DNA of 64,000 nt from Sphaerolaimus hirsutus (Eukaryota; Nematoda; Chromadorea; Monhysterida; Sphaerolaimidae), in the NCBI GenBank assembly GCA_964036195.1, contig OZ038451.1, forward strand, positions 6,204,529-6,268,528. Reading direction: 5' to 3'. Below, piece after piece: positions 1,565-63,100 of this stretch (its first letter is position 1; each line of letters opens with the position of its first letter). The notes beneath the pieces were generated by a model. That model saw nothing but the letters and a program-made list of their open reading frames with translations, was not told the origin of the DNA and did no database searches. Made by a program: the position numbers and the translations under genes.

Positions 1565-4500
1565 CTGCGAGGTGACCTTTTTGATTTGAATTATGGATTA
1601 GAATTTTTTTGTGAAATGACAATGTGATGTCAATGATCTGAACAATTTTTTACTGTCACCCATTATTGGTGTTTTGCATGTAGAGATGCAAATAATTTTT
1701 TACAAAGCACACATGTTGTGAATTGCACTATTATAGTAACGTTGGGAATCCAACTTGACCGGACTCGGCCCGAACCCAATACCCACACATTTTCTGGAAC
1801 TTATACCTGTCTCTGAGACTACTACATCCAAGCCCAATACCTGACACAAATACGTGAACCTACACTTAATACCCAAAACTACCTGCAATTTTTCTTTTAC
1901 CGAAACCCAACATTTGTAGCTGAAAAACTGACACAATACCCAACCTCAATACCCAACGATTGTAGCTGAAAAACTGACACAATACCCAACCTCAATACCC
2001 AACATTTGTAGCTGAAAAATTGACACAATACCCAACCTCGATACCCAACATTTTTACCTGAAAAACTGACACAAAACTCATCCTCAATACCCAAACCATA
2101 TACCCGTAAAATTTTGAAACCGATACCCAATACCCCTAAAATGTTTGGGCACAATATGCATGCACACACGCGCGACCATTAACACGCTCAAAAAAAAGAA
2201 AAAACCGCACTCCCACAAAAATGCAGCCAACCTCAACCTAGCCTGCCTCCATGCATGCAGCACGATGAACACGTCGTCCACCCCAATGGCGATGATGAGA
2301 AAGGGCGCGCTGGCCAGGAACACCTTGTAGGCGGAGCCGACGGCGAACATGCACCCGTAGGTGGTGGCGATGGCCATCAGAGGCACCAGGGGGCAGTCCC
2401 AGACCCTGTAAAGGACCTTGCAAAATTTCATATGTCATGTAAAGGACCCTGTAGTGTCATGTGTATCCTAATCTCATTCACTAGTATCCAAATCTTATGT
2501 TTTTGTATACAAATCTTACATTTAAACATAATATTTGGATATAAAAACATAAGATTTAGATACTAAAGAAATAAATTTGGATACACCTGACACTTTACAG
2601 GGTCATTTACATGACACACGACACTTTACAGGGTCTTTTACAGGGTTTGCGACTGGCACCAGCAGCCCCACAGCGGCCGTATACGGCTTGCTGTCGCGGG
2701 TGTCGCTCGAGCGGCTGAAACGCGCCGACGCGAACATCGTGTAGAGGAGGGTGAGCACTAGGCCCATCTTGGGGGGTGAGGTTTGCGGGCAACTTGAACG
2801 AAAATGGCTTTTTTTGGTAAAAATAACATATTTTGTAACATGACTGGATAGAAAGGTGCGAAATGATATTTAGTCCACCTGAATACCGTATTACCTCGAA
2901 ATACCCCCATGGGGGTTTATTATTTCGCCAGCAAAATTTGAGGGGGGGTTAATTCGAGGGGGAGTATTATTATTTCGCCAGAAATTTTCGTAAGTTTCGT
3001 AGTAAATAGTAGGCATTTGCATACCCAAAACAGGTAATAAATGTATCCAAACAGGAGACATTTGTACAATAAAACGTTAATAGCTACACAAACTAGTCTA
3101 TGTGTAGTTGCACCTGCAATGCAAATGAACAGTAATATATTTACATCATGTACATTGCATACATGACGTAAATATTCATTATGTACATGACGTACATCAT
3201 TCTGAGGGGGGGGGGGGGTATTCCGAGGGGGGGGGGTTATTATTTCCCTAGCCCATTTTGAGGGGGGTTTATTCGAGGGGGGTGTCAATTCAAGGGGGGC
3301 ATAATTCGAGGTAATACGGTAGATCAAATTAACAAACAAAAAAGTTGACGAAAGCAAATGCAGTACATCCATTCTCACAATGGGTCAACAAAAAAGGCGA
3401 CATGGTTTCGATCGTGTAAATACTGTACTGACCGTGGTGTTTACAAATTATGTCTCGTGTTGGCAGCATGCCAACAATTACTAATTATTTTACGCATATG
3501 ACTACTGTAAAATTATATTTATGAAATGATTGTTGTGAGACACCGGGGGGAATCCCAAACACCTTAAAGTGTAAAGTAAAGTAATAAATGTCATGAAAAA
3601 TGTCATGCAATTGTCAATTGCAAGTGTAAAGTTCAGTAATCGAAAGTTTTCTCTTTGATTTTGATTTACACCTTACTTTACGCTGTACAGGGCCTGGGAT
3701 TGACCGAGTTTACAAAAGTTTACCGAGGGATTGACCGACTGGGAGTTTACAAACCGGCAGAAATAAAGTCGCTTTGACGCCCAAATAAAGTGCCGCCTGC
3801 CCATACATGTGATGGCCCCCGTACACCCCCACGAGCAGGGGGGAATGCACGTGCAAATGTCTGATGTACATGGCTATTTTCTCCTCTAGTCGGTGAATGG
3901 CGTCCACCATGCGTCCATTGGGGACGACTGTACGCAACAGCACTTTGTAACTGCCCACTGAGGTTAGGATGCTGAAAAAAACAGGATTAGAGGGTTTTTT
4001 GGTCCTATGTCTTGTACTATGCTAAGAAAAAATTTTTTAGAAAAAGGCGGAGTCACGTAGAAGTGTCACATATGCTTTTTTCCTGAAACGTTTTTCTCCA
4101 TTTTGAACCATTTGGCAGAGTTGTGAAAGTGTATTTACACATACCCGAAATACCCGGGTAAATGGGTATTTATATTTACACTTACACTTACACTTTCATA
4201 AAATACCCTTACACTTTTTTACACTTTCCTGAGCAAAATACCCGGGTACAGAAAGTGTATTTTTTTCTTTCAGATGGCCCTGTTTTTTGCTTTTGAGAAA
4301 GCATAAAAAAGGGTCCTGTACAAAAAATAACTGCACAGTGCACACATGCAGTTATGCATTGAATGTAGAAAATATGGCAAATGTACAAACTAGCCTTTGA
4401 TAACCAACCTTTGATCAATACTCATGGTATTCTACAGTTTCATCATACTTTTGTAAAAAGGACAAGATCAATGGAAATTCACTAGCTGGACACAAAGTCA

Positions 4501-7500: not shown

Positions 7501-9052
7501 GTTGGGAATTTGAAGATATTCGGTTCCGGTTTTCGGTACTCGGGTCCGAATTATGCTGAGAACCGCGGTTCGGTACAGTTCGGGTCGGTTCGTGTTCCCA
7601 ACCCTAGGGCCAACACATACTAGTTGACATCGCAAATAAATGTCAACTGAATGTCAACCAAATGACACAAAGTTCAAACATCACACTTAACAGAAACTTG
7701 ACAGTCGGGTTCGGATATCGGGTATCGGGTTTAGGTTGAAAAAATGTGAGAGTATCGGGTTCGGGTCGGGTCAGGTCGGGTTTTCCAAGGAACGTTTACA
7801 TCACTATAATACCCATCGCCGAATTAAAACACTACACCATAAAAACCACACTCCAAAAGCTGCACAATTGTCAACTCACAGTGAAGTGGTACAAATAGCC
7901 GTTGCGACTGTAGAAACTCGCCATGGCACTTTCCTCCTCTTTACTTCTAGACTCGGCCGGTATCAAGTCCGATCTGAGGTCCGTGTCAACTTTGAACCTG
8001 GGGACAGTCCCGAGCCCTGTAAAGTGTAATGTCAAGTGTCAAATGTCATGTAAAATGTCATGTTAAGTGTCAATTATCATGACAAGTGTGAAGTAAACTG
8101 TCGATTGACATGGAAAATTCAGTAATAATATTTTTTTCCTTTGCTTGACATTTGACATTTTACTTAACACTTTACAAGGCTCGGGACTGCCACCTGAGTG
8201 CGCCCAGCGCCGACAACGACACCGCCAGGATGGATATGCAAACGATGTGCCTGGGGTAGTCGGCCACGAATAGACCCACCTGATACGGGGGCAAGTTTGA
8301 AAATGTTTTTGAATTTTTTCAATGTCAAGAAACATCCCAATTTTAATTACCGTATTTGCTTGAATCATTCCCCCTTGAATCACCCCCTCGAATAATACCC
8401 CCTGTTAAATGGGTGAGGATAAAATAATCCCCCCTCGAATAATCCCCCATTTAGGCCTATTATAAATCTGTTGTGTCCAATTTGAACAAAAAGGGTATGT
8501 TATTTTGTTAACAGAGCATATTTCGTTAAATGAGATGATTGAAACAGCATTGAAAACTTTGACAAAATAATATTTCTCCCCTGAATAATCCTTTCTTGAT
8601 TTGTTCCCCCTCAAAAATGTCTGACGAAATAATAATCATCCAGAGGGATTATCCAAGCAAATACCGTAATACTTTTACAGAGAGATTCGGACATTTTGAA
8701 TTCATTTTTGAATTTTTCAGGTAATTTTTTGGTGAAAATGCATGTAATATGCAAAAACGCATGCCCAAATGAATCCGCGACTGGGGAGCCGGGAAAACGG
8801 GTGGGTGCCGACAAACACTACCTACATTATTACAAACAGTATACCGTATTTGCTTGAATAATCCCCCTCAAAAAAGTCTGACGAAATAATAATCCTTTAG
8901 GGGGATTATTCAAGCAATACGGTAATTCGAAAAGTCATACTAAAACACCTAAAATCAAAACATATACCAGAGGGTTTGCCATCATAACCCACCCGACCAA
9001 AGGCGCCGCGCATGCACTGCTCCAGACGAAATTTTGGACGATTTTTTGACAT
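1323..9052 (-). CDS. Patched-related sterol-sensing-domain membrane protein, 5' part (9 exons)
   Basis: Nine exons join in phase into a 417-residue N-terminal segment. Residues 1-20 are a short cytoplasmic lead, TM1 is at about 28-46, a roughly 200-residue extracellular domain follows, and then a sterol-sensing/RND-type membrane block. The block contains MAIATTYGCMFAVGSAY and GVDDVFIVLHAW (GVDD near 322-325), then SDAGPTITLTSLTNFLSMLCG, which is the classic Patched/PTCHD/Dispatched arrangement. The family are 12-TM transporters of sterols or lipid-modified ligands; the subfamily cannot be fixed from this half. The start is ATG 9052-9050, reading MSKNRPKFRLEQCMRGAFGR into a GTGGGT donor. The second RND half must lie left of the window; I found no convincing further exon below 1323. 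Two introns (7998-8193 and 2387-2659) are introner-type elements. Family is certain, exon ends are my inference. Confidence 0.9.
1880..2100. repeat. Tandem repeat of about 46 bp
   Basis: At least four diverged units built on ACCCAACATTTGTAGCTGAA and ACTGACACAATACCCAACCT, in the intron between exons 8 and 9. Confidence 0.8.
2238..2386 (-). CDS. Patched-like exon 8 (sterol-sensing domain core)
   Basis: Encodes VPLMAIATTYGCMFAVGSAY, LASAPFLIIAIGVDDVFIVL and HAWRQA with a GTTGAG donor at phase 2. GVDD is the conserved RND/Patched acidic motif. Its upstream intron ends in TG rather than AG. Confidence 0.9.
2390..2659 (-). mobile_element. Introner element forming Patched-like intron 7 (GT-TG)
   Basis: 270 bp. 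Minus-strand ends are GTGCCAGTCG and GGGTCTGGGACTGCCCC. Flanks are CTG on both sides (plus-strand CAG 2387-2389 and 2660-2662), a 3-bp target duplication. Removing the element plus one CTG restores AVGLL-VPLM in frame, so the intron would run GT to TG. Confidence 0.85.
2660..2767 (-). CDS. Patched-like exon 7 (sterol-sensing domain)
   Basis: Thirty-six codons after CCCCAAG: MGLVLTLLYTMFASARFSRS to TAAVGLL. Ends in CTG, where a 270-bp introner begins with GT. Joins exon 8 as AVGLL-VPLMAIATTYG. Confidence 0.85.
2884..3321. mobile_element. TACCGTA palindromic element, family A
   Basis: Starts TACCGTATTACCTCGAAATA and ends with the reverse complement. Contains several C/G homopolymer runs and a conserved interior. 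TA at both ends. In intron 6 of the Patched-like gene. Confidence 0.85.
3546..3700. mobile_element. Diverged introner-like element
   Basis: Ends resemble the introner ends (GGGGGGAATCCCAAACACC and GGGCCTGGGATTGACC) around GTAAAG/CTTTAC repeats. It lies 55 bp downstream of Patched-like exon 6, beside a small duplication of GGTCAATCCC. Boundaries approximate. Confidence 0.5.
3755..3950 (-). CDS. Patched-like exon 6 (ectodomain to TM2)
   Basis: Encodes YKVLLRTVVPNGRMVDAIHR through GQAALYLGVKATLFLP, donor GTTTGT. I chose the acceptor GGGCAG at 3951-3952 because it alone keeps phase with exon 5; an upstream CTCAG at 3958-3959 would need another, unseen exon. Confidence 0.7.
4135..5480. repeat. 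Two direct copies of a roughly 450-bp repeat
   Basis: About 4135-4585 and 5035-5480 share ATACCCGGGTAAATGGGTAT-like sequence, ACTTACACTTACACTTTC and TGCAGTTATGCATTGAATGT in the same order. No coding signal. They sit in intron 5 of the Patched-like gene. Confidence 0.75.
5558..5895. mobile_element. TACCGTA element, family B, 5'-truncated
   Basis: The right end CGAGGAAATACGGTA and the CCCCCC-rich interior are present. The matching left terminus is absent. Confidence 0.7.
6064..6213 (-). CDS. Patched-like exon 5 (ectodomain)
   Basis: Acceptor CTAAG, donor CAG/GTCGGT. Encodes APSLMLFRLFKENSSNANEE and TATYPTIKMFANDFF, matching the L-x-x-x-YP feature of Patched-family ectodomains. Phase agrees with both neighbours. 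Confidence 0.7.
6369..7004. mobile_element. 636-bp palindromic element
   Basis: Arms of roughly 290 bp mirror each other. The left starts GGGCCAGATTTAATTCTCCC and the right ends in the complement GGGAGAATTAAATATGGCCC. Both carry GTAGGGCGTACGCCC and a long conserved block with CGACGCACATGCAC. No long frame. Confidence 0.8.
7130..7262. mobile_element. hAT-like element fragment
   Basis: GCC/GGC-rich sequence (GGCGCTTTT, GCGCCAACGCC) ending CCATCACTA, the complement of the TAGTGATGG terminus. The other terminus is degraded. Confidence 0.55.
7308..7450 (-). CDS. Patched-like exon 4 (ectodomain)
   Basis: Acceptor CCCCAG, donor CAG/GTATTG, phase 0 to phase 2. GC-rich. Encodes CMVSAADGGSLLRADHSAAL and LVELFEEHIAV, part of the first extracellular loop. 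Confidence 0.75.
7500..7800. repeat. GGTTCGGGTCGGGT-type simple sequence
   Basis: Runs of GGTTCGG/CGGGTTCGGGT flank a fragment with ACTAGTTGACATCGCAAAT that also occurs at 57.0 kb. No exon recognised. Confidence 0.55.
7880..7997 (-). CDS. Patched-like exon 3
   Basis: Starts right after the introner's duplicated CAG and reads FKVDTDLRSDLIPAESRSKE, the conserved post-TM1 stretch with a D-x-x-x-L-x-P-x-S-R pattern. Ends in a GTGAGT donor, phase 0. Confidence 0.85.
8001..8193 (-). mobile_element. Introner element forming Patched-like intron 2 (GT-AG)
   Basis: 193 bp. Minus strand reads GTGGCAGTCCCGAGCC to GGCTCGGGACTGTCCC, with CAG on each side (7998-8000 and 8194-8196). The intron is element plus one CAG, 196 nt, joining ALGAL-R-FKVDTDL exactly. 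Confidence 0.9.
8194..8279 (-). CDS. Patched-like exon 2 (TM1)
   Basis: Acceptor TATCAG, 28 codons plus two bases. Encodes YPRHIVCISILAVSLSALGAL, the first membrane helix. It ends in CAG directly against a 193-bp introner whose first bases are the GT donor. Confidence 0.85.
8348..8667. mobile_element. TACCGTA element, family C
   Basis: Left end TACCGTATTTGCTTGAATCA, right end CCAAGCAAATACCGTA. Interior rich in CCCCTCGAATAAT. Lies in intron 1 of the Patched-like gene. Confidence 0.75.
8842..8924. mobile_element. Minimal 83-bp family C palindrome
   Basis: TACCGTATTTGCTTGAATAA and its complement are separated by under 50 bp, the smallest full-ended copy in the window. Confidence 0.8.
8993..9052 (-). 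CDS. Patched-like exon 1 (start)
   Basis: Twenty codons from ATG to a GTGGGT donor. CMRGAFGR joins in phase 0 to VGLFVADYPRHIV of exon 2, the usual Patched-family lead into TM1. Confidence 0.8.
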
Positions 9053-26045: not shown

Positions 26046-26414
26046 CTGCCATTCCTAGACCCTGTAAAAGACCCTGAAAAGTGTCAAAGACCCTGTAAAA
26101 TGTCATGTGTCATGTAAAATACCCTGTAAAGTGTCATGTGTAACCAAATCTTTTCTTGTCATATCCAAATCTTATGTTTTTGTATCCAAATCTTACCGTT
26201 TACATAAGATTTGGATACAAAAACATAAGATTGGGATACAAAAACATAAGATTTGGATACACATGGTACTTTACAGGGTCTCTTACATGACATTTGACAA
26301 TTAACTGGGTCTTTTACATGACACATGACGCTTTACAGGGTTTTACATGACACATGACATTTTACAGGGTCTTTGACACTTTACAGGGTCTTTTAAAGGG
26401 TCTGGGAGTGCCCC
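26046..26414 (+). mobile_element. Introner-family element outside recognised genes (left arm)
   Basis: CTGCCATTCCTAGACCCTG to GGGTCTGGGAGTGCCCC with CAG on both sides (26043-26045, 26415-26417). It lies in the giant element, not between recognised exons, and has lost the GT (CTGCC). Confidence 0.8.
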
Positions 26415-31653: not shown

Positions 31654-32023
31654 GGGGCACTCCCAGACCCTTTAAAAGATCCTGTAAAGTGTCAAAGACC
31701 CTGTAAAATGTCATGTGTCATGTAAAACCCTGTAAAGCGTCATGTGTCCATGTAAAAGACCCAGTTAATTGTCAAATGTCATGTAAGAGACCCTGTAAAG
31801 TACCATGTGTATCCAAATCTTATGTTTTTGTATCCAAATCTTATGTTTTTGTATCCAAATTTTATGTAAACAGTAAGATTTGGATACAAAAACATAAGAT
31901 TTGGATATGATAAGAAAAGATTTGGATACACATGACACTTGACAGGGTATTTTACATGACACATGACATTTTACAGGGTCTTTGACACTTTTCAGGGTCT
32001 TTTACAGGGTCTAGGAATGGCAG
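31654..32023 (-). mobile_element. Introner-family element outside recognised genes (right arm)
   Basis: Mirror copy of 26046-26414, flanked by CTG on the plus strand. It was therefore inserted before the arms were duplicated. Confidence 0.8.
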
Positions 32024-36119: not shown

Positions 36120-39100
36120 CTGTGGGGGATTTGCAATGTGAAGAATTGTTATATTAGTTTGCATGGTTATAACTTCGCATCTCACACATCAAATCTATTC
36201 ATCACATCAATGGGCACTCGGTTTCACATTTTCATGGAAAAGTAATATGTATAAAATATTCTCATGTACTCATGAGTATTTTACATAAGAATGTATTCTT
36301 CATTTTCAGTACTCGGGGTCGGGGGTGAGTAAAACCTATTTTACATTGAAAAATACTCAATGCAAAACCAATCCAACGCACCTCCCTGACATCAGGTTTC
36401 ACTGGGGCGTTTTTCCCCTCCAAACATGTGCAATAAAACGGCGGCACGCCCGCACTTTCGCACGACCTATTCTGGTCAATTGGCTTAAATAAACTCCGCC
36501 CATGCCCCCGTGGGTCGCTTTCAAATCGCCCGTTCCCAGTTGAAAAAGCATCTGAGGGCAGTCCCTAACCCTGTGAAAAACCCTGCATAGTGTAAAAGAC
36601 CCTGCAAAACATAGTGCGACATGTAAAAAACACTGATAAATGTTATGAATCATGTGGAAGACCCTGTAAAGTGTCAAATGTCATGTAAAAGGCCCTGTAA
36701 AGTGTTTATGTGTATCCACATCTTGTGTCGTATCCAAATATCACGTTTTCCTATCCTAATCTTACTTTCTACGTATTGGTTTGTACATGTTGATTTGGAT
36801 ACAAAAACATTAGATTTGAATATTATACAAAAAGATTTGGATACACATCACACTTTACAGGGTCTTTTACATGACACATGACATTTTACAGGTTTTTTAC
36901 ATAACACCTGACATTTGACAGTGTCTTTTACATCACACCCGACATTTTACAGGGTCTTTTACACTGTACAGGGTTTTTACAGGTCAGGGACTGGCACCTG
37001 ATGTACGTCGAAATTACTGGTTAATCTGTGCCTGTTGTCGGCGAGGTTCTGCACCATGGTGGGGTGCTTCTCGGTGAACCATTTGGGCAGGTGGATTGAG
37101 AAAAATGACATGCGCTCTTCGATGCGACCTGCGAGTTTCGAGCGATGGTAGGGTTGGGGTGATATGTCGAAATTGAATATCGACTATTGCCTATCTTCTC
37201 CATAACAAATATCGAATATCGATATAAAAATTTAGAAAAAAAAATCGAATTTTAATATCCTATTCGTATATCGACCATTTTTTCATATTGAATTGTTGAA
37301 TTTCCGATACCGATGGTCCATATCGATATCGATATGACGCGTCCAATTCTAAAAGTCGACAAGTCCAAATTATGAAAATTTCGAGTTAGGCCCGGAAACG
37401 TCATCTGGGGCTACTTCTGCACATTTTTCATCATTTTCCATAAATTTTTTGACCTCACATGCCCATATGGCAAAGTGCCAAATTTGACATTTTTGGGGAA
37501 AAATGCAAAACGTTTGGGCAAGAAGTCGACAAGTCCACTTAGTTTTGGGCTAAAAGTCAACAAGTACATCCTCCGCTTCCTTTTAATGGGAAAAAACGCA
37601 AGAAATGTGATAAGTCCACTATGGAAACCGATTTCTAAAAGGGACAAGTCCATAATTTTCCCATAAAGCAGCCTCGGCTTCACCGGGAACAAAAATGTTC
37701 TCGCGTGCAAGAAGTCGACAAGTCCAATTCCCTCCCCGAAAGAGTTTTGCTCTGACCGAATGGAATTTTATGGACATCCCATTTTTCACATATACCGTAT
37801 TACCTCGAATTATCCCCCCCCCCTTGAATTAACCCCCCCCCCCTCGAAATACCCCCCCCTAAATTTCGGCTGAGGAAATAATAACCCCCCCCCTCGAAAT
37901 ACCCCCCCTAAAATTGAGTGTAACGTGAACGTACATGACAAATACCGCAGTTTGTGATCTGTACAATGCAGAACACACGTTAAAACTGATGATTAAGTGA
38001 CGTTAGCGAAGGGTTTTTGTGTATATAGAGTAATATATGCCTAAAAACACATATAAATCTATGTGATTGTTCGATTTTTCTACGTCTGCGTATGGGGAAT
38101 TTCCGATAATTTCTGGCGAAATAATAGACCCCCCCCTCGAATAAACCCCCCCCCCTCGAATTATCCCCCCCCCCCCCTCAAATTTTGCTGGCGAAATAAA
38201 AAAAACCCTGGGGGTATTTCGAGGTAATACGGTACGTTGAGAGCAGGGGCTGAAAATTTGACACTTTATTGTCAACATATGGAACTTAATGGAAATCATG
38301 AGAGAGCCAAATTGGACACGCACCACGGGCCTGGAATTGGGTTTGAAGCTTAAAATGCGATTTACTCAAAATCGCATTTTGTGGACTTGTCGACTTTTAG
38401 AATTACACGCCTCATATGGAATATTGATTTCAGACAAATTTTTGTCGAATATTGATATCGGAAAGTCATATTGTTCCAATGCAAGGTGGTGGGGCAGGTT
38501 AGTAACTACCGTATATCCTCGAATAAGACCTCCCCCTTGCATACCCCCCCCCCCCTGTTGGCCAGGTGCGGAAAAAATAACCCCTTCCCTTGAATAACTC
38601 CCCCTCTGGGTATTTGGTATATGTATCTACAAAGTGTATTTGAATGATTCAGATGCCAATGCACACAAATCTTAGCATGAATACTTTGTTTTGGTTGTTA
38701 TTTAACTGTTAAATCCTTACATTAAATGAGTTGATGCAATGCATTCACTCAATGAATAAAGTGAAAGTTCAGAGGAAAAAATAACTCCTCCCCTTTGAAT
38801 AATATCCCCCCTTGAATAACTCCCCCCTCCAAAACTTCTGACGAAAAAATAACTCCTGGGGTCTTATTCGAGGATATACGGTATGTAACATAAGAAAAAT
38901 AGCTCCCAGAGGGAACATCTTCAAGAATTTACTGAAGAGAGTAGGTTAATCGATGCGCATAATTATTTTTCAAACGGATATTCAAATTCACTCACCAACG
39001 TATGAATATTTTATGCGAGACATTCGTTGACCGTGGTCCCCCATGATTACCAAAGCGGATTTCTCCAATAGTCTATCATAGTGTAACCTGAAAATAGAGC

Positions 39101-42100: not shown

Positions 42101-45100
42101 AAATCGTTTTGATGTGAGCAGTGAGCATTGCAGGGAATGTAAAAGCTTTCCCATAGCTTTTGTGATTTCGTTTTTCACTTCCTTCAGCTGTGTATTTGTG
42201 AGAATGATAATTTTTAAGTGCGCAGAATTTTTTGACATCGATCATTAATGCAGTTGTGACCATTTTGTGACATCGATCATAAATTAATCGACCAAAAACT
42301 GCAGTTTGTGATCTGTATATTGCAGAACACACATTAAATAGATTTCGACACTCCGGTGGTTGGACACATGTACCATCTACTGTATTGAGTGCTTTACTAA
42401 ATATCTATATGAAGCCCTGGAGGGGTACAAATTCACTGAACCCCTGAGATGCTTATACATGTCAGTTATTGTTGCATTTTTCTACTTCTGCGTACGTTAC
42501 TTGCAAGGAATACCTAAGTACTGGGAGTGAAAAAATTCTGGAAAATAACCCCCCCCCCCCCTTGTAAATTACATACGAAAAATAAGCCCCCTGGGTGTAT
42601 TTCAAGGAAATACGGTATATATATACAAATATTGGTGTCACTGCCTCAAAAATGCCTGTCACTCACTGTCACCGCCATAATTTTGGACATTTTTCGTCTA
42701 TGCGGGCGCCTTATGAGCGCCGTGTGGTTCTATTCAGTTTGGGCCGGGGATGGTGGAAATTTTGGTATTGGTGTGGTGGGTATTTGCCGAAAAATATATC
42801 TTAAGTACATTTTACTTTTCCCCAACTTTTACAGCCCTTATTAAGGCCATTACTCGCGCCCCAATGAAATCTCGGAACTTCGAATGAGAACAAATTTTAT
42901 AAAATTCTGAAACAATAAAAAACTTCTGGTCAAATTTTCAATTTTCATTTTCACCATTGTTGACAACAACAATAAGTACTCGCCATAAACCAAAAAGTCG
43001 ACCAACCCTTCAAGCCAATAAAATCCCATAATTTCCGTCATGAACTTCCAACTTCTGCTCGCGTGTCTCTTAAACTGATTCAAACTGGAGCTGTCAAACA
43101 CAATAATATCCACACTCAATCTATCGCCATTTTCCTCAATTAATGGCACTTCCCTATCGACAATCGACTTCTGTTGCGCATACGCGTGTTGATAAATCGA
43201 TTCCGAGTCGAAAAACTTGTTCAATTTCTTGTTGTGGCTGTGTTTTTCGAGCAAATCTGGGGACAGTCCCAGACCCTGTAAAATGCCCTGTAAGATGTCA
43301 AATGTCATGTAAAATGCCCTGCAATATGGCGCATTTCAGGCAAAGTGTCAAACGTCATGAAAAATGCCCTGGAAAATGGCAAACGTACGTTGACATGACA
43401 TTTCACATGACTTTTGACATTTTACATGACATTTTACATTTTGCCTGACATTTTACATTTTACACGGTATTATACAGGGTCTGGGAGTGGCACCTGACCG
43501 CTGCTCGATCGTCATATTCCGCAGTTTGTCTTTGGATGCCACTAAAAGTGTGGCTGACTCGTTGTAGCAGCGCACAGCGAGTGTGTCCACGGAAATTTTG
43601 TGCGCTGCATTGAATTTTAGCTGGAAGGGGGGGGGTTTCCTGATGTGCGGTGAGGTGTGTGATGACCATTTTTAAAATTGGATTTTTTTTCTCAAATAAG
43701 TGCCAAATTAAAGGATGGATCATAGTGATCAGAAGGTTTGTTTGATAATTGAGTCAATGTTGGCACAACCAAAACGCTGACAGGTTTACTCTAACTCTAA
43801 TCAGGTAAACTAGTAAAACTTGTGTGGTCATGGTCAATTTTGGAGTCTGTCTCAGCTCAAACACCTTTCAATATAAAAAAATCAGAAATCAAGTTTGGGC
43901 GGTACAAAGGGAAAAAGATTTTTTTTAAATTAACACTTAAAAATGTGAACAATACTTTTGATTCTATTTTCCGGAGACTTCGGAACATTAATTATATAAA
44001 AAAATGGGTTTTTACCCAGGGCCAAGAAATACCAAAAAAAAAAAAATGTCCAACTCCCCACCAACCTCCCTCCAATACCCCTCCCAGGTCAATTTACCGA
44101 CGCTCCCTCGATAAGTCCCCCCAATTTGCCTCCAATAGCAAAATGGCGCCTTCTGATACCAATGCGACAAATCGGGATGCAAATAAAGTGTCCCCGAGCT
44201 CAAATCGTAACTTGACAACGAGGCTTGGGTCTTTTGACAGGAAAATGTCCTGGGCCGCTTGACGTATGGTTCTGAGTGGAGTTTTGATGCCTTTTTTTGA
44301 TGGGGAGTTATTCAAGGGTTACGTGTTTATCATCAGAATTCGCACTAAAATACTTGAGTACGAACGCCTGGTCTGACATAGGGGGAAATTCAAGGGAGTA
44401 ATTTCAACCGTGATTTTTCATAAAAAGGTGCACTGTATGCACATAGTTTTTACAATTAAATAGATATGTAAAAATTAAAAATAAATGTGAGAACCTGCTC
44501 ACGCTAACACTTTAAATTGATGCTTTCTGGATACTGCAAATTTTGGAAGGTGTTTATCAGTAAAATTATGTCGCATTTGGAATTTTCAGAATGCCTTGTT
44601 TTTCCGGGGGCAAGACGTGCAACGAATCTCACATAATGTCTTGAATTTCCAGAAATAATCATTTGATGACATTTCACAAGCACCTAGCAAAGCAACATAC
44701 CAATATTGGGATCTAAGGGGTCCAAAATCGGATATTGGCAGTCATTTTCCAATGGGTGTGTCCTGGGGCACTCCCAGACCCTGTAAAATTCCCTGTAAAA
44801 TGTCACTTGCCATGAAAAAATTCAAAAGTTACGTAAAATGGTCTGAAAAATGACACAAGAAAGTTTTACAGGGCATTTTACATGACTTTAGACACTTTGC
44901 ATGACGTTTGAAATTTCACAGAGAATTTTACAGGGTCTGGAAGTGGCACCTGGGCTCGAAGGAAACAATCTTACTCCAATCCGCACTGCTTAACGGCGCC
45001 ATATGCACATTTGTCACATTCACTTCCTGACGACATTTCACTGGATTATTTTCCTTGTCCACGTAGTGGGACGATTGTTGGACCAGTGCCAAAAATAGAA

Positions 45101-45152: not shown

Positions 45153-45308
45153 GGTAGCATGCTGCGAGAGTGTTATATGAGGGTTTTTATGGTAGCAACG
45201 ATGGCAGATTGAACCTGACAAATTTGAATCAACAAATCTGAAAATTCTAAAACTTTTTTGATTTTGAGTAATTGAATTTTTCCATTGCAAAAACACAAAC
45301 AAAAATTT

Positions 45309-45751
45309 GGCTATTTACACAGGTCCCGGCCGGGGACCGGGACCCGGCAAAAAATATTTTTTTCAAAAATGAATAAATGGTGTGTATGGGTTGTTTGCAT
45401 GTTAATTAGGTTAATTATCACCAAATTAGCATGCACAGAATTTTTGCGAGACGGCGACATGCGCTGATGCAAATTTTTTTTTGGCGGTGTATAGTTTTTT
45501 TTGATTTGTCTGAATCCTTTGTTTACTGAGTACACATGCCACATTTGAGACAAATCGGAAAAAACTATACACCCCCCAAAAAAAAATTGCATCAGCGCAT
45601 GTCACCGTCTCGCAAAAAATTTGTGCATGCTAATTTGGTGATAATTCACCTAATTAACATGCAAACAACCCATACACGCCAATTATTCATATTGAAAAAA
45701 TATTATTTTTTGCCTGGTCCCAGTCCCCGGCCGGGACCTGTGTAAATAGCC
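45309..45751. mobile_element. 443-bp short relative of the 10.1-kb element
   Basis: Ends GGCTATTTACACAGGTCCCG and its complement, whole sequence near palindromic. Flanks caaaaattt (45300-45308) and caaaaatta (45752-45760) match at 8 of 9 bases. This is the deletion-derivative size class of the same family. Confidence 0.9.
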
Positions 45752-45782
45752 CAAAAATTAGTGGTGAAAACAAAAACAAAAA

Positions 45783-53435: not shown

Positions 53436-53658
53436 GTGGCAATCCCAAGCCCTGTAAAGTGTAAAGTAAAGTGTCAAATGTAAAGTCAAATGCAAAGTAA
53501 AGTGTCAATCAAAACAAAAAAGAAAAGATTTTATTATTGAACTTTGCATGACAATTGACACTTTACTTTGCATTTGACTTTACATTTGACACTTTGCTTT
53601 GCATTTGACTTTACATTTGACACTTTACTTTACACTTTACAGGGCTTGGGACTGCCCC
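53436..53658 (+). mobile_element. Introner element, plus orientation, CTG target
   Basis: 223 bp. GTGGCAATCCCAAGCCCTG to CAGGGCTTGGGACTGCCCC, flanked by CTG at 53433-53435 and 53659-53661. Removing it plus one CTG joins LLHL to GFLCILENVF in frame; the intron would be GT-TG. Confidence 0.8.
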
Positions 53659-53661
53659 CTG

Positions 53662-54987: not shown

Positions 54988-55190
54988 GTGCCACTCCCAG
55001 ACCCTGTAAAATGCCCTGAAAAATGTCAAATTTCATGCAAAGTTCACAAGTCGTGTGCCATTTTCCCGGGAATTTTACATGACATTTCACATTTTACATG
55101 ACATTTCACATTTTACATGACTTTTCACATTTTACATGACATTTCACATTTTACATTTTGCAAGGCATTTTACACGGTCTGGGAGTGCCC
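54988..55190 (+). mobile_element. Introner element before an unassigned exon-like block
   Basis: 203 bp. GTGCCACTCCCAGACCCTG to CGGTCTGGGAGTGCCC, CAG at 54985-54987 and 55191-55193. GT-AG on the plus strand. Confidence 0.8.
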
Positions 55191-55193
55191 CAG

Positions 55194-55396: not shown

Positions 55397-55671
55397 GGAA
55401 CAGTCCCGCACTCTGTAAGGTCTAATGTCAATTGAAATAAAACAGATTGTATTACTGAACTGTTGATATTTTGCATGACATTTGACTAGTCGTGAAACAG
55501 CGCCAGGATTTCATAGGTATGGGGCCGAGCGTCAATGGCGCCACAGCAGAATAGTGCCAAGCGCCATGGCACTACTTCCTTTGGCGCTAGAGAGAGCGCC
55601 AGGGCCATGGCGTATTTCCATGACTACATTGAACACTGGACTTGATACTTTACAGGGTGCGGGACAACCAC
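55397..55671 (-). mobile_element. Introner-like element with embedded hAT-like sequence
   Basis: Minus strand GTGGTTGTCCCGCACCCTG to GTGCGGGACTGTTCC then CAG. The duplication is imperfect (CGG against CAG). A GCGCCA-rich hAT-like piece (about 55490-55630, ends TAGTCGTGAAA and TTTCCATGACTA) is inserted in it. Confidence 0.6.
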
Positions 55672-60195: not shown

Positions 60196-63100
60196 CTGGA
60201 ATTTTGAAACATTTGCTTTCACCGAAAAGTTCCATTTTTTGGGACTTGAAGGTATTTTAAAGCATAGTTGTTAAAACGTATTTTTAGAGGACAGAAAATG
60301 TCAATTTGCCAAACAGATAGTGACAAACATAAGACATTTTCATAACAAATACTTATCAATAGAGAAAACACATCTTTGATCCACACCATAGTAAACATTG
60401 AAAAAAATACTGACTTTTTCTGTGACAAGATTTACTTTTACGTTTTCTGTAAGAAAAATTCCCGTTTTTACGTTTTCCGCTGAAAAAATATCATTTTTAC
60501 GTTTTCCCTGGGAAAAAGTATTTTACTCACGTTTTACGCAGTGTAAAAGTATTACAAAAATACTTTACGTGTTCTGTTCTCGCGGGTGAGTAAAAGAAAA
60601 ATATTTCACGCTTACGTTTATTTTTAAAAAAGTTCAGAAGTTTTAAAAACTCTTTTAAAGGTTTTTTAACCTGAGTAACGAGCATTTCGGCGAGGTCCGG
60701 TTCCGTTCGACGCATTCTGTTCAGTCGGCGGATGAGCGAGTGTCTAAAAAAGCAAAAAATTGTCAAAGTTATTTCGTTTGAGTGACAAACGTGTATTACG
60801 TTATCATTTTTCAATGAGAGTTATGTGAAAAATTGTGCAGAAACGTTTAATTGAGAACGTTAAATCAATGCGATGCGAAAAACAGTTTTTCGTGTTTATG
60901 GCAGATTCCATTGAAAAGTACGCAGTCAATAGAATGTTTAACCGTCATTTAAAATACACAATTTTCACAGAGAACACCCCCATCAAGGGGGGTGCTTGTT
61001 AGGGTTCAAACGGGATCCCGATCCCGAATCACGATAATTTTCGGGATTTTGTGGCCCCGATCCCGATCCCGAAATCTCAAAAAGCCAATCCCGATCTCGA
61101 TTCCGAAAAAGTCAATCCCGTTTGAACCCTTGTGCTTGCCCACGCATGAATTCTACCATTTATAATGCGATAAAAAACCCACCCAGGATTAATTTCCAAA
61201 CACGGCCTCATGAGCATAATTTTCGCATCCTCATTGACCTTCCTCGCAAAATCCGGGTGCCTGGAAAAAGTCCTCAAAACCGACTCGTGTTCAGCCGTTG
61301 TAACCAGACAAGGCTGTTCGATGCGCTGGCGCGATAGCTGCGTGGGGATGGGGGTTGGACTGGGGGCAGTTCCGCACCGTGTGAAGTGTCATGTCAAGTG
61401 TCATGTCAAGTCAAGTGACTTAAGTGTCATGTCAAGTGTCAAGTGACAGGTAAAGTGTCAATTGCAGGAAAATACGTTTATTAGTTACTTAAGTTTTGAC
61501 ATTTTGCATTTGATATTTTACAGATTTGTATGACACTTGACATGATCTTTGACACTTGACAGGGTGCTGGAATACCCCCTGGTGGCAATTCCAAGTTGCC
61601 AAGGAAAGTGGCAAGTCATATGGTTAAGTGGTAGTAAAAAAAGTTACGAATAATTTCAGTAACAAATATCCTTGACTTATCACATTTGGGATACGGTAGA
61701 CTTCTGTTTAAAGTGCGCACTCCGGAAACTAAATACCATAAAGGTACCAAGCCACAAAAATCGCGACGATGAATTTACATAAATCAATTCAATTACTTGT
61801 ATTTATAGGGTTCGCACAGGGCCTTTACCATTTTGGAGGGCATTTAACACTTTGCATGACATTTTACACTTTACACGGCATTTTACAGGGTCTGGGATTG
61901 ACATCTGGGTAACATCTGATGGCAAAAAATTGCAATCATTATTATAGTTAACTCTCAAACCAACCCGTACGCGATCGACCCTCTTGGGTCCGAGCATTTT
62001 CTCCGCCCACTTCACCAGCTCCTTGTACTCGGTTTCTTCTGAAAAAAATCGCAAAAAATAGTTTAAAATGCAAAAACGTCAAAAAAACGTGTGCAAAAAT
62101 CGAACCCTGAGTCGTAGTAGTGGTAGTCTGCGCTTTGAACCAATTTTCAGCGGACACGATCGGCTTGTCGGAAAAGTTCTTCAAATGGAACAGTGTCATT
62201 TCGTCCTCTTGCTCTGTGACGAAAAGCACCTCCATATTTGTGGGACGAAAAGCCTCGTAAAACGGCGAGTGTTGTGCCGCTTCACGGCTGCGAGAACAAA
62301 AATTGCTGTCGCATTTTTTAAGTTGGGTTCGAAGCGTGTCTGGGGACAGATTTAATTGGCACTGCACACTGCACACTACCAGTGGACCAAAAATTTTGTA
62401 AACTAAATTTTAACTAAAAACTAAATCAATTTTGAATTTGAACTTTGAATTAATAAACTTTGATTTACTGGAATCAGAGGTGTTGGTCAACTACAGTTGA
62501 CGGATAGTAAAATAACTCATTCCAGTTAACTCAAATACGTTCAAGCCTGATTTATGAGTTTACCAAATTTGTAAAATTCCAGCAGTAAGCCAGTGTGTGC
62601 ATCGACATCACAATGCAAGTCACGCGCGAATCGCGCGCGCCTTCCAATTGGAATCCGGCCCCGGGCCGCCATCGAACAGAAATGCGCACCTGAACAAACC
62701 TGGGCACGTTCAAGTAGTAAATGGACTCTTGGCTGGCCTGCATCCGCTGCACGTACTCGTTGAGGCTGACCTTGACCCCCGGCCGGCTGTTGGACGACTC
62801 GAACAGCAGCAAGCGGCCGATGTCTTCCTGGGGGGGTGAATAGGGGTGACTGGGGGGTGACTAGGGGGGGGGCAGACGTTGGGGTGACTTGAGGGGGGCG
62901 GGGTATCGGTTCCAAAACTTTTGCGGGTATCGGGTTTCGGTTCGGGTATTGAGGTCGGTTATCGTGTCGGGTTTCCAGGACCAAATTCTTCAAAGTGATA
63001 AGTGAAGCGGAGGGGCGGAAAATATTTGAAAACCGATAATTTGCATTGTCGAGAAAAGCAACAGATACAGATAGATATTCAATCAGTTTTAATGATTTTG

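Follow-up and report, generated by a model that had tools for sequence, protein, structure and literature searches.

Are the introns of a nematode DUF229 gene transposons that are removed exactly from the RNA, and if so, what allows a mobile element to act as a complete intron? Introners are a leading candidate source of new introns, and two introns on the minus strand of the window (the whole stretch of 64,000 nucleotides from Sphaerolaimus hirsutus analysed here) had been put forward as such in the original prediction. The first (copy E, 44763-44949, phase 2) comprises an element at 44766-44949 and the CAG acceptor copy at 44763-44765, the second (copy D, 43257-43493, phase 1) an element at 43260-43493 and the CAG acceptor copy at 43257-43259. 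Read on the minus strand, the borders are CCCAG/GTGCCACTTCC...GGGAGTGCCC/CAG/GACAC for E (187 nt with one CAG, inverted-repeat arms of 82 nt) and GTCAG/GTGCCACTCCC...GGGACTGTCCC/CAG/ATTTG for D (237 nt with one CAG): in each case the intron is indeed made up of a single inverted-repeat element and one CAG of the duplication.

Once the element and one CAG are taken out, the open frame is restored in both (IEQRS/DLLEKH in D, FEP/RTHPLENDCQYPILDPLDP in E); a retained element brings in-frame stops in either case. The joined protein of D matches DUF229 across the junction (protein residues 33-126, with the junction after residue 42, against profile positions 74-163) at an E-value of 1.4e-5 and 24.5 bits, just below the Pfam cut-off of 25; the exon downstream of D by itself matches profile positions 108-163 (E 4.3e-4). 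In a search with the joined protein the Pfam DUF229 match does not reach the junction of E, where the motif is one that we take to be DUF229-like; E is regarded as exact because of this motif together with the open frame. The claim that phase and family alignment are restored exactly holds, as to phase, for both introns and, as to family alignment, for D at a score just under the cut-off, the alignment at E lying outside the match.

We consider it highly probable (roughly 0.88) that these introns belong to an introner family, that is, a non-autonomous DNA transposon, short and MITE-like, whose insertion at CWG duplicates the three target bases. Within a gene, such an insertion would make a new intron. 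The joined flanks suggest that GT, with which the element begins, would serve as donor and the right-hand CAG of the duplication as acceptor, and splicing would give back the original exon unchanged. Predicted folds suggest that the two letters in which the ends differ (terminal-repeat positions 2 and 4) loosen the foot of a long hairpin, which may leave the donor less buried while keeping the two splice sites close. The target and the GGGG end point to a NuwaI-type PHIS transposase as the probable mover. A copy landing on CTG might undergo GT-TG splicing, disrupt its gene, or acquire a CAG acceptor at a later time.

A genome search with the element ends, as proposed in the original prediction, revealed a large family: exact matches to the 17-nt 5' end number 1,509 in 348,482,957 bases (762 contigs), against 0 for the reversed control. 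From 100 of these 5' ends that were listed we read 91 places (88 loci), and a 3' end could be assigned in 66 of the 91 but not in the other 25. The 66 copies measure 98-414 nt (median 188), with 45 of them between 140 and 200 nt, and the 45 identical 3-nt duplications, which include a few duplicated loci, comprise 29 CAG, 13 CTG, 2 CAT and 1 TGG. The family is thereby a MITE family: short, non-coding and of high copy number, with inverted repeats and a target duplication. On contig C1, seven 5' ends lie within about 52 kb (16475764-16527430) amid repeated flanks and with no assigned 3' end; these are truncated copies within a local duplication. In three related C1 loci (L056, L057 and L058) the element occupies one and the same position, and this copy is therefore older than the local duplications. 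By our reading, COX1 of this genome makes sense with AGA as Ser, an argument against tunicates.

Within the window, a 19-nt end is found at 13 places with at most 3 mismatches (0 in 100 dinucleotide shuffles), and a paired-end scan yields eleven copies, A to K. Copy A (2387-2659, minus strand; element 2390-2659 with the CTG copy 2387-2389) interrupts a gene for a Patched sterol-sensing domain in phase 0, and the joined frame AVGLL/VPLMAIATTYG gives a Patched match across the join at an E-value of 1.4e-18; since the duplication is CTG, an exact intron here would have a TG end. At copy G (7998-8193, minus strand; element 8001-8193 plus a CAG copy) the frame is open across the join in phase 2, and by eye the joined frame is Patched/NPC1-like and resembles the protein at copy A. 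An NPC1 model crosses the join weakly (E 0.0093), and Pfam and PDB searches gave no support for this joined frame. Copy H (36552-36997, minus strand; element 36555-36997 plus a CAG copy) lies between two DUF229 exons of the gene that holds D and E, where the exon phases differ (left 0, right 1) and the frame is not restored; here a frameshift, a further small intron or another splice site is needed.

Coding context is not shown for five other copies in the window. Copy F (54988-55193, plus strand, element with a CAG copy) adjoins an acceptor-like TTTACAAGATTACAG, and copy I (53436-53661, plus strand, element with a CTG copy) has the ends GTGGC and GGGGC. Copies B (26046-26414, plus strand) and C (31654-32023, minus strand) are 97.8% identical and lie about 5 kb apart in opposite orientation; both have CTGCC where the family has GTGCC at the 5' end, B has CAG on both sides, and the right flank is common to the two copies but the left flank differs. 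Copy J (55397-55671, minus strand) has the 5' end GTGGT, with CGG on the left and CAG on the right. In copy K (61363-61904, minus strand, CAG on both sides) ATGTC replaces GTGCC, and by our reading of a gene model drawn by eye it lies within an older intron of an HSP90/TRAP1-like gene. Not all copies are therefore exact introns: B and C stand without coding context, K falls inside an older intron by reading, and at H the frame is unrestored. A different inverted-repeat element is present just upstream of the DUF229 gene (45306-45754), with 166-nt arms (45349-45514 and 45545-45710, 89% complementary) and outer 58-nt arms ending in the GGCCGGGACC type.

Because a 3-nt duplication restores the frame wherever an element lands, what counts is orientation, together with conserved domains that continue through the junction. 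We joined the flanks without the element and one target copy at 78 sites: 61 sites left after dropping 5 near-duplicates, and 17 further unique sites that were all picked as CAG/CAG. For the 61 sites, all frames that stay open on both sides of the junction for 28 residues or more were submitted to Pfam, which gave 58 sense frames at 36 sites and 38 antisense frames at 28; for the 17 sites, the search took in 16 of the 21 sense frames and all 13 antisense ones. Junction-crossing matches were obtained 10 times on the sense strand of the element and 0 times on the antisense strand. Six come from the 61 sites (CHGN at L021, Carn_acyltransf at L049, Abhydro_lipase at L052, PRMT5_TIM at L060, COMM at L065 and Bestrophin at L073) and four from the 17 (KH_1 at L092, PS_Dcarbxylase at L101, Trypsin at L106 and KxDL at L108). 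Nine are above the Pfam cut-off and one (COMM) is below it. In the concatenated query, the CHGN and bestrophin matches extend some 14-17 positions beyond the end of their insert. The search included 74 sense and 51 antisense frames, but this surplus does not account for 10 against 0. The target pairs of the ten are CAG/CAG in seven, CTG/CAG in two and CTG/CTG in one, which places CAG at the acceptor position in nine and CTG in one. The window copies D (DUF229) and A (Patched) are consistent with the sense-only pattern, and in copies within recognisable protein domains the GT end faces the upstream side of the gene.

Frame agreement was also counted at sites where each side has a single frame open for 40 codons. 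The left and right frames coincide in 12 of 17 sense cases (p 0.002) and in 4 of 12 antisense cases, with 1/3 expected by chance. At 25, 30 and 35 codons the agreement is 6/10, 9/13 and 10/14 for sense and 4/14, 4/13 and 5/14 for antisense. A retained element would introduce an in-frame stop in all 13 coding cases checked. A codon-usage model was discarded as evidence, being driven by G+C and scoring antisense near sense (20 against 13 of 79 with 20 codons and a threshold of 0.2). Several matches were likewise not counted as junction-crossing: Glyco_transf_11 at L054 has 6 residues to the left of the junction, 7tm_1 at L079 begins 9 residues past it, and PI-PLC-Y and C2 at L055 and PAN at L116 were set aside as well. 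For L007, L022 and L041, SMYD-like or receptor-like by eye, the Pfam search returned no family in support.

These observations bear on the possibility that the copies are ordinary MITE insertions in pre-existing introns, close to exon edges, with the older splice sites still in use. Copy K is of this kind by our reading, and most sampled copies stand without a demonstrated coding context; at ten sites and at A and D, however, the match to the protein family crosses the join exactly and leaves no space for a flanking intron, and all ten junction-crossing sites are on the sense strand. We regard this explanation as highly improbable for the family. The introner reading is instead supported by the genome-wide family and by the single orientation of the copies that interrupt domains. 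Family similarity extends to both putative splice borders, with ten sampled copies as well as A and D crossing conserved domains at their exact ends, and the copies in genes are oriented such that a putative donor and acceptor are provided. Judged from the sequence, the RNA seems to lose the element precisely.

The two ends of the element are not alike: the 5' end reads GTGCC, the other end GGGGC, a difference that creates the putative GT donor. Among copies with exact ends at a gap of 145-175 nt, 213 are asymmetric, counted over the four CWG combinations (118 CAG/CAG, 65 CTG/CTG, 22 CTG/CAG and 8 CAG/CTG), against 3 with GGGGC at both ends and 4 with GTGCC at both. The symmetric patterns were searched without demanding CWG, and the contrast is thus conservative. 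Among 17 pairs from fetched DNA that were unselected by end, three of which are spurious inner matches, there was no GG/GG or GT/GT pair.

It might also be argued that the copies are recent insertions which disrupt genes and remain unspliced, the joined frame being merely the sequence before insertion. A 3-nt duplication does make any insertion seem exact on removal, and the CTG copies lack an AG acceptor. Such insertions would nonetheless be expected in both orientations, against the 10 sense and 0 antisense cases seen, and would not favour CAG, whereas CAG/CAG exceeds CTG/CTG by 118 to 65 (p 1e-4, duplicates included); the GT-type end at one side of 213 of the 220 exact-ended copies speaks against them too. 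This makes unspliced insertion marginally less plausible still than the use of older introns. Least credible of all is the copying of introns via RNA (reverse splicing) rather than DNA transposition: CAG before the donor and at the acceptor is ordinary splice consensus too, but the long terminal inverted repeats, the 3-nt duplications at CTG (13) as well as CAG (29), the 65 CTG/CTG copies and the copies without coding context all argue against it.

If the introner reading is followed, the difference between the ends may matter for splicing. The predicted fold of intron E is a single hairpin with only GUGC and CCCCAG outside (z -10.8), and one outer stem is predicted in all 86 intron folds. The first four bases lie outside this stem in 67 of the 86 folds, and none of them does in 11. 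On average, the first G is paired with a probability of 0.45 and the donor U with 0.14, and neither of the last two bases exceeds 0.02. When the 5' end was changed in silico to GGGGC (84 copies), the first six bases paired at 0.96-0.99, with the final AG unpaired either way. In the model, then, what the end difference exposes is the donor together with the C-run that precedes the acceptor, not the AG itself, and the donor is exposed partially; exposure of the donor may in turn aid splicing.

The copies on CTG pose a separate problem. In Patched (A) and bestrophin (L073), CTG/CTG copies interrupt the coding sequence exactly, and neither of the two has an AG at the junction. Use of an inner donor with an inner TTTTACAG acceptor at CTG/CTG copies would leave an extra 37 nt and a shifted frame (hand count). 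Either these copies are introns with a TG end (GT-TG splicing) or the genes are broken. Human genes offer a precedent for TG ends: in the portion of PMC2374985 available to us, TG is described as a 3' splice site of GT-TG introns, with alternative sites in 36 genes. The human sites are alternative, whereas TG would be the sole site at the CTG insertions here, if these are spliced.

Mixed target pairs show a bias: CTG/CAG exceeds CAG/CTG by 22 to 8 (p 0.016, segmental duplicates included), by about 18 to 8 after removal of duplicates by eye (p 0.08) and by 6 to 1 at sampled unique sites. Over mismatched target pairs of any kind, CAG is on the right in 12 and on the left in 5. Together with the excess of CAG/CAG over CTG/CTG, this is suggestive of selection for an AG acceptor with later repair, with an insertion preference as the alternative. 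A more far-reaching version holds that the element is a self-tuning intron maker: two end differences would make a NuwaI-type MITE a portable intron by providing the donor and loosening the hairpin foot, the hairpin would keep the splice sites close enough to let TG splice, and selection would turn the downstream CTG into CAG. We regard this as possible though less likely than not; the fold control, in which the end difference exposes the donor only and not the AG, lowered its odds. If true, the animal would have GT-TG introns midway in becoming GT-AG introns.

An autonomous partner was sought through PF13359 (DDE_Tnp_4), which has 163 matches genome-wide. Most of the matches listed belong to one abundant PIF/Harbinger-like family with a 633-nt match that contains about four TGA, perhaps because the transposase domain contains an intron. 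The four copies read (L119-L122) are 97-99% alike across about 2.5 kb; they were rejected as partner, representing another transposon in which the four searched end motifs are absent. No transposase with the ends of the introner family was found among the four of 163 PF13359 loci read, and on C1 no PF13359 match lies beside a listed 5' end, as judged by eye among the matches listed (to 23 Mb).

How does the family relate to known systems? The original prediction suggested that this terminal sequence and CWG target may represent an undescribed family. The target is a described one: in the part of PMC4482050 available, the NuwaI group of PHIS (PIF/Harbinger) is described as having a CWG target duplication and repeats of 12-61 bp, usually starting with GGG, in 16 animal genomes. 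The present family shares the 3-bp CWG duplication and, at one end only, a terminal repeat starting with GGG. The other end starts with GTG (GTGCC), and the inverted repeats are longer (82-nt arms in E against 12-61 bp). The family is a candidate member of NuwaI: target and one end agree, while the GTG end, the longer repeats and the lack of a matching transposase among the loci read differ.

The proposed mechanism matches that of introners in Chrysochromulina (PMC9860276, legend of Fig. 2C). There too the donor lies in the element, the acceptor stems from the target duplication and the exon is unchanged after removal; in that system, however, the duplications are of 4 bp and terminal inverted repeats are lacking, whereas here we find 3-bp CWG duplications and long inverted repeats in an animal. 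The introner elements of the dinoflagellate Amoebophrya have mostly non-canonical, variable splice sites in the excerpt of PMC7789003 at hand. Like the present elements they carry inverted repeats that can form hairpins joining the exon borders (with direct repeats of 3-5 nt), but by the same excerpt these repeats are not family-specific, in contrast to the one family with fixed ends described here. We found no report of this family among the introner papers listed, judged by title and opening of the abstract, a search that leaves subscription papers and preprints outside, and novelty is accordingly not proven.

In the part of a 2022 survey available to us, introners are reported from just two animal groups (PMC9860276). 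With a single family, a single target and two letters that separate the donor end from the other, S. hirsutus would offer an animal case that is both abundant and easy to read. The possible stages CTG/CTG, CTG/CAG and CAG/CAG occur together in one genome, and RNA reads would make each step between transposon and intron directly measurable.
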